A DNA stretch of 7,425 nt, from contig CP070636.1 in NCBI GenBank assembly GCA_020356305.1, positions 350,679 through 358,103 on the forward strand, read 5' to 3'. The notes below the pieces were generated by a model. It was not told where the DNA came from. It saw only the letters and a program-made list of their open reading frames with translations, and did no database searches. A program made the translations under genes and the position numbers. The first letter of the stretch is position 1, and each line of letters starts with the position of its first letter. Below are positions 2,000 through 5,878 of this stretch, piece after piece. Source of the DNA: Candidatus Bathyarchaeota archaeon (GTDB taxonomy: Archaea > Thermoproteota > Bathyarchaeia > Bathyarchaeales > Bathyarchaeaceae).

Positions 2000-2326
2000 T
2001 TAAGGTGCGCTTTTGAAACTAATTGTTTGATTGGACAGGTCGAGCTCATACACTTGGTTCACGTCAAACTTGATGCCGAGTTCCTCGTATTCCTGCTCCG
2101 TCAAGAACAGGATTATTTTGGGCAGAGTGAATTGAGTCTGCACGCCAAAGGTGGGAAGTTGCTGCCTCAGCGCTTGAACGACGTCTTGAACTACTCTGGC
2201 CTCTTCTGTTGAGGGTTTTACCGCGAACCTCGGAATCACTCGATCCTGAATCAGTTCAATTCTCTTCCCAAGGTTTCCGTCTGGATCTCGTATAGACTCC
2301 ATTTTTTGAACTCTCACGCGTATCAT
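2000..2326 (-). CDS. Small conserved-looking protein, possibly arcadin-1-like
   Basis: The product is 108 residues, last in an operon after GMP synthetase subunit B. The predicted pattern is: N-terminal strand MIRVRV, a charged loop DPDGNLGK (about 15-21), a second strand, a helix at about 40-56 (EEARVVQDVVQALRQQ), then PKIILFLTEQEYEELG (69-84) and a strand-rich C-terminus (KFDVNQVYELDL). No signal peptide or membrane segment is seen. ATG 2326 is preferred because GTGA precedes it at a good distance and the segment further upstream in frame is low-complexity and overlaps the end of the GMP synthetase gene. The size and the FLTEQEYEELGIKFDVNQVYEL pattern recall arcadin-1, a small protein encoded with crenactin in Crenarchaeota, but this is memory-based pattern matching. 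No crenactin gene lies in the window. Treat the function as unknown. Confidence 0.75.
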   Translation of the reverse strand: MIRVRVQKMESIRDPDGNLGKRIELIQDRVIPRFAVKPSTEEARVVQDVVQALRQQLPTFGVQTQFTLPKIILFLTEQEYEELGIKFDVNQVYELDLSNQTISFKSAP

Positions 2327-2396
2327 GTTCGTCACTTCAACGGTATTCCACTGATCGATGGAACGGTTTATTTCTTTCTGAAGAGGAAACGTGCGG

Positions 2397-3599
2397 TTAT
2401 TCCATTTCGATGGTTGCAGGAGGCTTGGGTGTGATGTCGTAGTGAACGCTTGAGACGTCATGACATGCTTTCAGGATTTTCTGTGCTGTTTGGTTCAAGG
2501 TTGCCCAGGGGATTTCAGCCACGTTGGCAGTTAAGAAATCCTGCGTTTGAATTGCTCGTATAGCAACTACGTAAGATTGTTTTTGCGTCGTTTCTTCAAT
2601 TGTGTATAGGATTCTGGCAAAAGAGGGGTTTTCTGCGATAATCTTCGTCTGGAGGAAGACCAAGTTTCTGAGGGGTGGTTTATGTATGTCACCGTTTGTT
2701 GTTTGTGCTTTGACGGCGGCAATTTCCCCGTAGTGTCTCTCGCCAGCCTTAACACCTGTAGCTCTATCTTGGAAAACCTTGAGGGTGATGTGTCTGGATG
2801 GAACGTTGAGAAAACGGGCGGTGGTTTCGTGGATGCGCGGGAGGCTGGGATGCTGAGGCTGTTCTTTGTTGTCAATGATGGCTGCGAAGTATTGGTCGGG
2901 GTTATGTTTGGCTAGGTCTTCCTCTGTTATGACTGTTGCTCTTTTGAGCGATTCTAGCTTGTCACTTTTGACTTCTCCGACGACCCGCACGAGGAGTCCT
3001 GGTCCTGGAAATGGCTGGCGTTCCGACATTTCTGTGGGTACCCCTAGGTATCTCGCCACCTCTCTGACTTGTTTCTTGTAGAGGGACGCGACGGGTTCGA
3101 TGACTTGATATCCATACTTCTGGACCGTGTTGATTCCCATCTGAGACAGGACGTTGTGCTGAGTTTTCACGCCTTTGGTGGTTTCGACGATGTCAGCGGC
3201 GATGGTTCCCTGCACGAGGAATTGGCAACTCTCCTTTTCAGCGGTTTCGCTCAGGGTTTTGTAGAAGGTTTCTCGGAATGCTTTGCGCTTTTCTTCGGCG
3301 TCATGCAATCCTTTTAACGCCTGTAAGAAGCGATCTTGAACGTTGAGTACTCTCATGGGAAGGTTTAGGGGAGGACTGGACAAGAGCTGGGCAACTCGTT
3401 CCGGTTCTCCTTCTCGCATGAAGGCGTCGTCCAGCATGATGCATAGAAGGTTTTCTTGTATGGCACGGTGGGTGAGCGCGGCGCTGGTGGTGCTGTCAAC
3501 TCCACCTGAAACCGCTATTAAGGCTCGTTCGCCGCCAACAGCCTTCCTGACTTCCTTCACTTGTTTGTTTACAAATTTTTGAGGATTAAACTTCTGCAT
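2397..3599 (-). CDS. guaAb: GMP synthetase, ATP-pyrophosphatase subunit B (long archaeal form)
   Basis: This subunit adenylates XMP and aminates it to GMP (EC 6.3.5.2), the last step of de novo GMP synthesis, using ammonia supplied by a separate glutaminase subunit (GuaAa). That partner is not in the window. The PP-loop SGGVDST is at residues 31-37, QGTIAADIVET at 130-140, and the family motif RQPFPGPGL at 194-202. The dimerisation domain ends in the canonical YDITPKPPATIEME (387-400). At 400 residues it is much longer than the roughly 310 residues of euryarchaeal subunit B. The extra length lies at about 230-280 and 300-340, around ATGVKAGERHYG (280-291), as in the longer Sulfolobus-type enzyme. 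No glutaminase domain is fused. ATG 3599 has GGAG about 10 bases upstream and lies only 2 bases beyond the stop of the upstream gene, indicating translational coupling. Confidence 0.95.
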   Translation of the reverse strand: MQKFNPQKFVNKQVKEVRKAVGGERALIAVSGGVDSTTSAALTHRAIQENLLCIMLDDAFMREGEPERVAQLLSSPPLNLPMRVLNVQDRFLQALKGLHDAEEKRKAFRETFYKTLSETAEKESCQFLVQGTIAADIVETTKGVKTQHNVLSQMGINTVQKYGYQVIEPVASLYKKQVREVARYLGVPTEMSERQPFPGPGLLVRVVGEVKSDKLESLKRATVITEEDLAKHNPDQYFAAIIDNKEQPQHPSLPRIHETTARFLNVPSRHITLKVFQDRATGVKAGERHYGEIAAVKAQTTNGDIHKPPLRNLVFLQTKIIAENPSFARILYTIEETTQKQSYVVAIRAIQTQDFLTANVAEIPWATLNQTAQKILKACHDVSSVHYDITPKPPATIEME

Positions 3600-3601
3600 A
3601 A

Positions 3602-4060
3602 CTATGTGGCTCCGTGGAACAACTGGTTTAGCGTCTTTCTGTTTATGTATTTACCGCTTCTAGGCATCTGTTTTATACTCGTAGCCTCGCAAATGACGCT
3701 GACTGGGATTGGAGCAGGAAGTTCGCGGAGGTTTCTGAACCTTATGAAAGTCGCCTCTGGTCTTCCTTGCAAAAAATCTGTGTATTCCTCATAGGTTTTC
3801 AGGCAGGTTTCGCTGCCATGAGCGTTCCAAAGGTCGTCGGCGTCTCCAGTCTTTCGCTCGACAAACTCGCCAACTCCTCGGATCTCTTTGAGCGGATGAG
3901 TCACATAGAAAAGAAGCAGCTCTGTTTTTTTGGGACCGACTTTTCCTCTGCGAACAAAGGCATGCAGCACTTTGCCAGCCCTGTTTTGGCTACAGACTCT
4001 TTTCCAGAATTTTTCATAGTTCAACAAAATGTATGCATGGCGTTCTGACACATGCTTCAC
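3602..4060 (-). CDS. PUA/ASCH-like fold protein resembling DUF365
   Basis: This is the first gene of the operon, ending 2 bases before GMP synthetase subunit B. The 152-residue product has features of the PUA-like superfamily: ELLLFYVTHPLKEIRGVGEF (47-66), the strand pair in which such proteins limit or read a bound nucleic acid or modified base; a DLWNAHG helix (76-82) and TYEEYTDFLQG (89-99); IRFRNLRELPAPIPV (106-120); and a C-terminal SGKYINRKTL (135-144). The order and the SGKY ending match my recollection of the archaeal DUF365 family. Members are thought to bind RNA or nucleotides, but I know of no proven function. The listed start is GTG 4060. A second GTG at 4051, preceded by GGTGA, is an equally good start and would remove three residues. 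Position next to a purine-synthesis gene suggests, but does not show, a nucleotide-related role. Confidence 0.75.
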   Translation of the reverse strand: MKHVSERHAYILLNYEKFWKRVCSQNRAGKVLHAFVRRGKVGPKKTELLLFYVTHPLKEIRGVGEFVERKTGDADDLWNAHGSETCLKTYEEYTDFLQGRPEATFIRFRNLRELPAPIPVSVICEATSIKQMPRSGKYINRKTLNQLFHGAT

Positions 4061-4967: not shown

Positions 4968-5276
4968 TTAGTAAGTGGAAACGGTGCTTAAACCAATAGG
5001 CTCCTTAAATTCCTTTTCGTAAATCAACTGAACTTCTCTAGAGGAAAACCAAATTGTGGGGAAGTCTTTGTCTATTACGAGCCGGACTTTGTCATATTTT
5101 GAGAGTTTAGAAGTGCTTCTGCCCCGTTTTGGGCTGAATCCACGCATTCCTCCTAACAACTCAACAATGTCAAGAATGCGAATCGCTTTTTCTCGCGTTA
5201 CTCGTCCTTGAAAGGTTATCGTGTATCGATTTCCATTGTCGTCGAAAACTTCAACCCGCATCTTTCGGGCAGGCAC
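4968..5276 (-). CDS. Winged-helix protein, C-terminally truncated by an in-frame stop
   Basis: The 102-residue product has two parts. Residues 6-46 form a strand-strand-helix unit (MRVEVFDDNGNRYTITFQG, then REKAIRILDIVELLGG). A basic linker follows (FSPKRGRSTSK, 47-57), then the first half of a DNA-binding winged helix: KYDKVRLVIDKDF (60-72), WFSSREVQLIYEKEF (76-90) and the start of a recognition helix, GLSTVSTY (95-102). The protein stops in the middle of that helix. The missing half is encoded in frame just beyond the TAA (see the entry at 4806-4967). GTG 5276 is preceded by GGTGG at about 5 bases, which favours it over the ATG five codons later. It lies 56 bases behind the RpoH-like gene on the same strand and may be co-transcribed. 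Likely a transcription factor of an archaeal family I cannot name. As encoded, it probably lacks a complete DNA-binding surface. Confidence 0.75.
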   Translation of the reverse strand: MPARKMRVEVFDDNGNRYTITFQGRVTREKAIRILDIVELLGGMRGFSPKRGRSTSKLSKYDKVRLVIDKDFPTIWFSSREVQLIYEKEFKEPIGLSTVSTY

Positions 5277-5332: not shown

Positions 5333-5878
5333 TCAACCAGGGGCGACATATCGATAAGAAATGTATTTTCCTGCTGTCAGGCTTTTTCGCGTGATTTTAA
5401 GGATGTCTCCAGTTTTAGCCCCGATCGCAATTACGGCGACATCTGATGATTTGATGCGAGGCATCTGATACGGTTGCACACGATATTTCTCCAATAGCTC
5501 CTTTGCCTCTTCAGGCGAAAGAATTTCGTGTTTGGGCACCAATTCATGCTCGAAGATGTTGAAGGAAGGAAAGACCCTAGGAATTAGTTCTATCCCGTAT
5601 TTCTTTGACTTCCTTTTGGCCGCGAAAGTGTATCTAGTATTGGCAACTATCATTCCCTTCTCAGCTCCGGCTGCTTTCATCGCTTTCTCCATTTTGTTAA
5701 CGTAAGCCACTCCTACTACTCGAGCTAGTACGCACCAAATGAGTACATACTTCTTTTTTCTAGAAACTTTAGCTAAGAGGCTGATGATGTTTTCTTGCTC
5801 CTCACGTTTTATCAGCTTGTAGCCTCTAAGCTTCATAAGATTTTGAGCTTTTCTCTCCTCTATTGTTTCAGTTTTCAA
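5333..5878 (-). CDS. Rpb5/RpoH-type RNA polymerase domain fused to a Mrr-nuclease-like domain
   Basis: Residues 108-178 match the C-terminal assembly domain of archaeal RpoH and eukaryotic Rpb5: FEHELVPKHEILSPEEAKEL, then MPRI (139-142), GAKTGDILKI and TAGKYISYRYV. Archaeal RpoH is normally this domain alone, about 80 residues. Here about 105 residues precede it, resembling the Mrr/restriction-endonuclease fold: a helix with RGYKLI (18-23), YVLIWCV (44-50) where active enzymes have a hydrophobic strand ending in QxK or ExK, helix 60-70, GAEKGMIVANTRYTFAAKRKS (71-91) and YGIELIP (94-100). The catalytic lysine position reads as valine, so it is probably not a nuclease. Eukaryotic Rpb5 also has a nuclease-like N-terminal jaw. 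rpoB, the usual archaeal neighbour, is absent, so this may be a paralogue beside a normal rpoH elsewhere. TTG 5878 has GAGGT 6 bases upstream; ATG 5836 is the alternative. Confidence 0.85.
   Translation of the reverse strand: MKTETIEERKAQNLMKLRGYKLIKREEQENIISLLAKVSRKKKYVLIWCVLARVVGVAYVNKMEKAMKAAGAEKGMIVANTRYTFAAKRKSKKYGIELIPRVFPSFNIFEHELVPKHEILSPEEAKELLEKYRVQPYQMPRIKSSDVAVIAIGAKTGDILKITRKSLTAGKYISYRYVAPG

Follow-up and report, generated by a model that had tools for sequence, protein, structure and literature searches.

To our knowledge, a DNA-holding jaw has so far been described for eukaryotic RNA polymerases and for those of some viruses of eukaryotes. In eukaryotes this jaw belongs to the subunit RPB5 (RPABC1), with which we compare here a long form of the archaeal subunit H (RpoH, also called Rpo5). 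In yeast, the N-terminal domain of RPB5 has a restriction-enzyme fold from which the catalytic residues are absent (available text of PMC551604), the jaw comprises residues 1-142, and the TPSA motif of RPB5 touches downstream DNA (both in the available text of PMC6690254). The gene under study, a long rpoH encoding an Rpb5-like RNA polymerase subunit H, lies in a 7,425-nucleotide stretch of the genome of a Candidatus Bathyarchaeota archaeon (contig CP070636.1, positions 350,679 to 358,103; hereafter the window). It occupies positions 5333..5878 of the minus strand (181 codons plus stop) and starts with a TTG codon at 5876-5878. Its product is composed of an N-terminal domain (NTD, the jaw; residues 1-104, 5567..5878, minus strand), which is Mrr/restriction-endonuclease-like, devoid of catalytic residues and similar to the RPB5 jaw, and a C-terminal domain (CTD; residues 105-181, 5336..5566, minus strand), which is the RpoH/Rpb5 assembly domain. 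We consider it quite probable that this protein is RpoH in a two-domain form, with a dead Mrr-type jaw at the lower jaw of the polymerase, and that it arose by a fusion within Bathyarchaeia, its likeness to RPB5 being convergent.

Domains and active site of the long RpoH

The domain match of the window RpoH is far beyond chance. PF01191 (RNA polymerase subunit H/Rpo5) matches residues 106-178 (E 2e-30; 104.8 bits against a curated cut-off of 23.5) and the NCBIfam equivalog model of subunit H matches residues 105-179 (107.1 bits, cut-off 83), in keeping with an earlier note on this DNA that had placed an RpoH assembly domain at the C terminus. In Foldseek alignments, this domain is like the H chains of complete polymerases from Sulfolobus, Pyrococcus and Thermococcus (44-61% identity), whereas the window protein differs from these canonical archaeal proteins by its extra 104-residue NTD. 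The Mrr/restriction-endonuclease-like extension that the same note had proposed was recovered by PF04471 (Mrr_cat; residues 11-100, E 5.6e-7) and by PF22722 (inactive REase 1; E 1.6e-6 with the NTD), both above their cut-offs. A protein search with the window RpoH returned 1362 relatives at E <= 1e-3, the best 120 of which share 58-91% identity over 91-100% of the query, with the closest one reaching 91% at full length, and a scan of contigs revealed six loci, all from Candidatus Bathyarchaeota. A chance open reading frame (ORF) at 5333-5878 was ruled out by the domain matches and the full-length relatives. To judge from its sequence, the window protein is a member of subunit H through its CTD and RPB5-like in architecture. 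Many long rpoH genes seem to begin with TTG: by hand count, 13 of 21 sequences had no other start codon in the 16 codons that precede the conserved block.

The restriction-endonuclease-like fold of the NTD is indicated in agreement by the domain matches, by an AlphaFold2 (AF2) model of the window protein and by a Foldseek search, in which the jaw alone matched the restriction enzyme MspJI (8.6e-4) and RPB5 (1.5e-3); the nuclease-like fold that the earlier note had asked structure prediction to examine is predicted. HIV integrase core chains, many of which were also among the Foldseek matches of the jaw alone, have TM-scores of about 0.3 and were set aside as a coincidental resemblance. The order of the two domains, a nuclease-like jaw followed by the assembly domain, is that of eukaryotic RPB5. 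The parallel with the Rpb5 jaw drawn in the note stood in the two-domain fold and in the RPB5 matches found by fold and by an NTD profile (3.2e-5, see below), but not in the dedicated family model: PF03871 (RNA_pol_Rpb5_N), whose span in RPB5 is limited to about residues 5-90, matched neither the window protein at E <= 1 nor its NTD at E <= 10, while five of five plant RPB5 controls matched at 1.3e-29 or better. Moreover, the window jaw is about 28-38 residues shorter than that of RPB5, going by the plant protein, in which the CTD starts at residue 133, and by the yeast jaw (1-142).

The active site was analyzed by aligning 74 long-form jaws with two Bathyarchaeial Mrr proteins whose active site is intact. 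In the window protein, the positions of the catalytic Asp, Glu/Gln and Lys are taken by S33 (5780..5782), W48 (5735..5737) and V50 (5729..5731; all on the minus strand), respectively, so the Mrr-type D...(E/Q)xK site is absent, and the valine that had been read at the lysine position (YVLIWCV) is placed there by the alignment too. Trp is found at the second position in 47 of the 74 jaws, Asp or Glu at the first in six, Lys at the third in none, and an acidic residue and Lys never occur together. The Mrr_cat match above cut-off would suit a working nuclease, or a defence protein brought to the polymerase by a borrowed RpoH domain, but given these losses and the fact that the long RpoH is usually present in a single copy and is the only RpoH found (see below), we regard this explanation as very improbable, and a live nuclease was rejected on the alignment (Lys 0/74). 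Compared with Mrr-type nucleases, AF1548 (1y88), the C-terminal domain of EndoMS/NucS and MspJI, the window jaw is different in that its catalytic residues are absent and that it is fused to RpoH. A loop with the sequence YTFAAK (residues 83-88; 5615..5632, minus strand) aligns with the TPSA motif of RPB5; at this place, all 74 long forms have [YFH][TS] and 72 end in Lys or Arg, the Pro of TPSA being mostly replaced. The jaws have a median net charge of +7.5; the charge is above zero in 69 of the 74 and amounts to +16 in the window protein. One 232-codon RpoH (L121, genome G086) contains a zinc-ribbon-like Cys4 insert (CEHC...CPKC) in its jaw, ahead of the last strand.

Occurrence, gene position and copy number

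PF01191 was searched against 250 genomes of the class, all of them assemblies, and 217 gave a match. With a long form defined as an open frame of at least 161 codons and a short one as 84-136 codons, a hand tally of the class yielded 166 long-form and 50 short-form genomes and one gene cut at a contig end; the jaw itself was seen by alignment in those long forms that were among the listed matches (150 in one search). The earlier note had allowed that similar fusions might be known in related archaea, and the long RpoH of 166 class genomes means that the jaw-bearing form is more widespread than it supposed. More than one match was present in 11 class genomes, a short and a long form together in none (G136 has a second match, but one that falls short of the cut-off), and 157 of the 166 long-form genomes have a single match.

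Twenty short and 20 long loci were then taken with up to 8 kb per side. The short rpoH adjoins rpoB, on its upstream side, at 20/20 loci, with rpoA1 beyond rpoB at 18, whereas motifs of rpoB or rpoA1 were found at none of the 20 long loci and at none of a further 20 (40 in total), so that the long relatives differ from canonical archaeal rpoH in lying outside the rpoH-rpoB-rpoA cluster. No rpoB is present in the window either; thus, as far as can be seen, the gene is not beside rpoB, as had been stated. The canonical rpoH next to rpoB that the note suggested looking for was sought in related genomes. Forty long-form genomes (20 + 20) were searched for rpoB, and three of them were dropped (G002, no match; G188 and G097, fragment). 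No rpoH was found around rpoB in the remaining 37 long-form genomes, at least 300 bases being available upstream in 36 of them, while the same check detected rpoH near rpoB at 8/8 outgroup loci. In G167 and G223, rpoB is on the same contig as the long rpoH, at a distance of more than 0.5 Mb; in G148 and G165, the distance is about 29 kb. Since no rpoH is seen by rpoB in long-form genomes and no genome has both forms, the long rpoH has replaced the operon copy, as far as these assemblies show. Two outgroup genomes, with open frames of 1212 and 1201 codons, suggested an RpoH-RpoB fusion, which was rejected, as the rpoB frame begins after rpoH.

Beyond the class, a long-form profile was run over a phylum sample of 398 genomes (75 class members and 323 from outside the class, with Asgard and euryarchaeal genomes lying outside the sample), and among its best 150 matches both domains aligned in at least 56 genomes, all of them class members. 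A jaw-only profile, run over 397 genomes, likewise gave strong matches (E < 1e-20) in class members only; outside the class, matches started at 8.4e-9 and came from 21 genomes, with open frames of 108-582 codons. The RpoH domain was absent from all six of these that were checked (108-200 codons, Mrr-like), the other 15 being 223-582 codons long. No description of an archaeal jaw-bearing RpoH was found in the open-access papers searched, most subscription papers and all preprints being outside this search. The available text of a 2026 study (PMC13257274) has Bathyarchaeal Rpo5 modelled with Rpo6 and describes changes in Rpo6 and Rpo8, with no Rpo5 jaw in that text.

In an RpoB tree of 65 genomes, whose outgroup is not one clade, 29 long-form genomes form a single clade (0.999) with a short form as its sister (0.792), and this clade is nested in a group of 50 (0.935) to which all 20 short forms belong. 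Seven other long-form genomes (G079, G115, G064, G076, G124, G044 and G109; clade 1.0) are placed outside the group of 50, and G278, which comes from outside the class, joins this basal long group (0.868). Divergent jaws are found in G021, a long form that falls among the short ones without support, and in G032, which is outside the tree. This distribution could stem from repeated fusion, from gene transfer, or from the differential loss of an old second copy.

As for copy number, the window protein falls, in a tree of 77 long forms, into a clade (0.987) with copies from G240, G024, G189, G182, G246 and G012; in a second tree, of 43 long forms, the window clade also takes in G575 (0.897), and G035, G207 and G001 lie outside it though about as similar by identity. 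The earlier note had suggested a paralogue that modifies or replaces RpoH in some polymerases. The window subtype would then be a second, accessory RpoH, present in some polymerases only or replacing the main one conditionally, and one part of this idea stood: five of the seven window-clade genomes have a further long RpoH that falls in another part of the tree, with one rpoB in each of the seven, the copies of the window type from G012, G182 and G246 cluster with one another in the 77-sequence tree, and multiple long copies are also found outside the clade, in G044 (three) and in G124, G076 and G162 (two each). However, the window-type RpoH is the only one found in G240 and G575 (78% and 75% identity), the genomes closest to the window, the window-type copy of G012 is interrupted by stops, and the genomes are assemblies in which mixed bins were checked by the rpoB count alone. 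We hold an accessory role of the window subtype to be unlikely, albeit worth keeping in mind. Somewhat more doubtful still is the broader proposal that Bathyarchaeia evolved an Rpb5-type jaw independently from a dead nuclease domain and that some of them duplicated it, giving alternative polymerases that differ in their jaw within one cell, like the RPB5 isoforms of plants and trypanosomes. In G044, G124 and G076, which have two to three long copies each (L127, L141, L145, L129, L140, L128 and L142) and a single rpoB, the LVPKH motif of the CTD has Ser for Pro in five of the seven copies.

Origin of the jaw

Twenty-nine diverse sequences were used to build a profile of the jaw alone, which was searched against all PDB sequences. 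RPB5 was the first match (Drosophila, 3.2e-5), and the seven best, down to 0.003, were all RPB5, ahead of any listed nuclease; fungal RPB5 appeared at 0.26-0.57, among noise. When the jaw profile was set against Mrr-like proteins of Bathyarchaeial genomes and plant RPB5, the highest scores were obtained by two solo Bathyarchaeial proteins (65.5 and 58.6 bits), followed by small Mrr-like proteins (27-33), plant RPB5 (at most 24.3) and ordinary Mrr-domain proteins (15-20), so the window NTD is nearer in sequence to solo archaeal proteins than to eukaryotic RPB5. The two solo proteins (L251 and L239, respectively; about 190-210 amino acids) have a jaw-like nuclease fold with Ile in place of the catalytic Lys, but differ from the long RpoH in another, Cys-containing C-terminal part and in an Asp position that is still D. 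They belong to a family of mostly about 175-210 amino acids that joins a jaw-like dead nuclease domain to a conserved Cys-containing C-terminal part (CGR.P...SDCKG) with no Pfam match; in G240, which is the nearest relative of the window, one solo jaw-like protein is encoded at a distance of about 3 kb from rpoH.

These data bear on whether the Bathyarchaeial jaw and the RPB5 jaw descend from one fused gene, through old inheritance with losses or through transfer. Such shared ancestry would account for the ranking of RPB5 above any nuclease in the PDB, for the same domain order, predicted orientation and DNA loop in both proteins, and for the jaw tree, where the long forms join first with the solo proteins (0.84), then with the G021/G032 jaws (0.69) and with RPB5 (0.65) before small Mrr-like (0.28) and active Mrr proteins. 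Yet the solo proteins join the long forms before RPB5 does in this tree and score much higher with the profile, a profile-profile comparison of the jaw with a narrow, plant-only RPB5 set was weak (probability 19%, 42 columns), eukaryotes (represented by four plants and one fly) are not close by the CTD, and the best 150 matches included no jaw-bearing RpoH from the 323 phylum genomes outside the class. We consequently judge shared ancestry to be rather unlikely, and independent recruitment of related dead-nuclease domains to be the better-supported reading; the likeness to eukaryotic RPB5 is likely a convergent use of one fold at one site. A transfer of the whole gene from eukaryotes was rejected on the mean CTD identities, and the CTD tree is too poorly resolved for dating the fusion.

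Several points weigh against a convergent, polymerase-bound jaw. Membership of the long RpoH in the polymerase is a prediction, and the jaw and RPB5 may share one fusion, the jaw tree being weak at its deep nodes (0.28-0.84). In the Foldseek search with the jaw alone, MspJI came first, ahead of RPB5. AF2 was probably trained on RPB5 structures, so the predicted domain orientation may be remembered. Since active and other Mrr proteins carry a comparable loop (FT..A, FS..A), the YTFAAK-type loop may be an ancestral feature of the nuclease fold, and five of the 74 jaws have no net positive charge. Long forms are found at two or more widely separated positions in the RpoB tree, so a single gain is not simple. 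Finally, the statement that the long form is the only RpoH rests on absence, as most or all of the genomes were assembled from uncultured organisms and their completeness is uncertain.

Neighbouring genes and proposed role

Conserved gene neighbourhood was tried as a clue and set aside: among the 46 loci compared, the matches to window genes were limited to an MscS-like gene (L270), the ORF at 4968-5276 (L267) and ABC ATPases (6 loci). This ORF (102 amino acids, minus strand) is directly downstream of rpoH, has no Pfam match above cut-off and is found at the same place in G575 (E 3.1e-23). Another, of 152 amino acids (3602-4060, minus strand), has no Pfam match at E <= 1. An Arcadin-1 gene (2000-2461, minus strand; PF18653, 4.4e-22) overlaps the end of the ORF at 2397-3599, which presumably encodes a GMP synthase subunit.

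Most likely, the window protein works as an Rpb5-type polymerase subunit, as predicted from the above. Its CTD would dock on the largest subunit like its archaeal and eukaryotic counterparts, as expected from the family. The NTD appears to derive from an Mrr-type nuclease domain: its sequence lacks the catalytic residues and retains a basic surface with a conserved loop, and the fold is predicted to have been kept. It would most likely be located at the lower jaw, where, in the manner of RPB5, it would hold the DNA in front of the transcription bubble, and may help in promoter opening and in the passage to elongation. We propose that a local nuclease-fold domain was fused to rpoH within Bathyarchaeia and that the gene left the rpoH-rpoB-rpoA cluster. 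The jaw-bearing RpoH of most sampled Bathyarchaeia would provide a natural prokaryotic test of Rpb5 jaw function, with the short-form sister lineages as controls, and it represents either a convergence on the same dead-nuclease solution or a finding that bears on the origin of the eukaryotic jaw.
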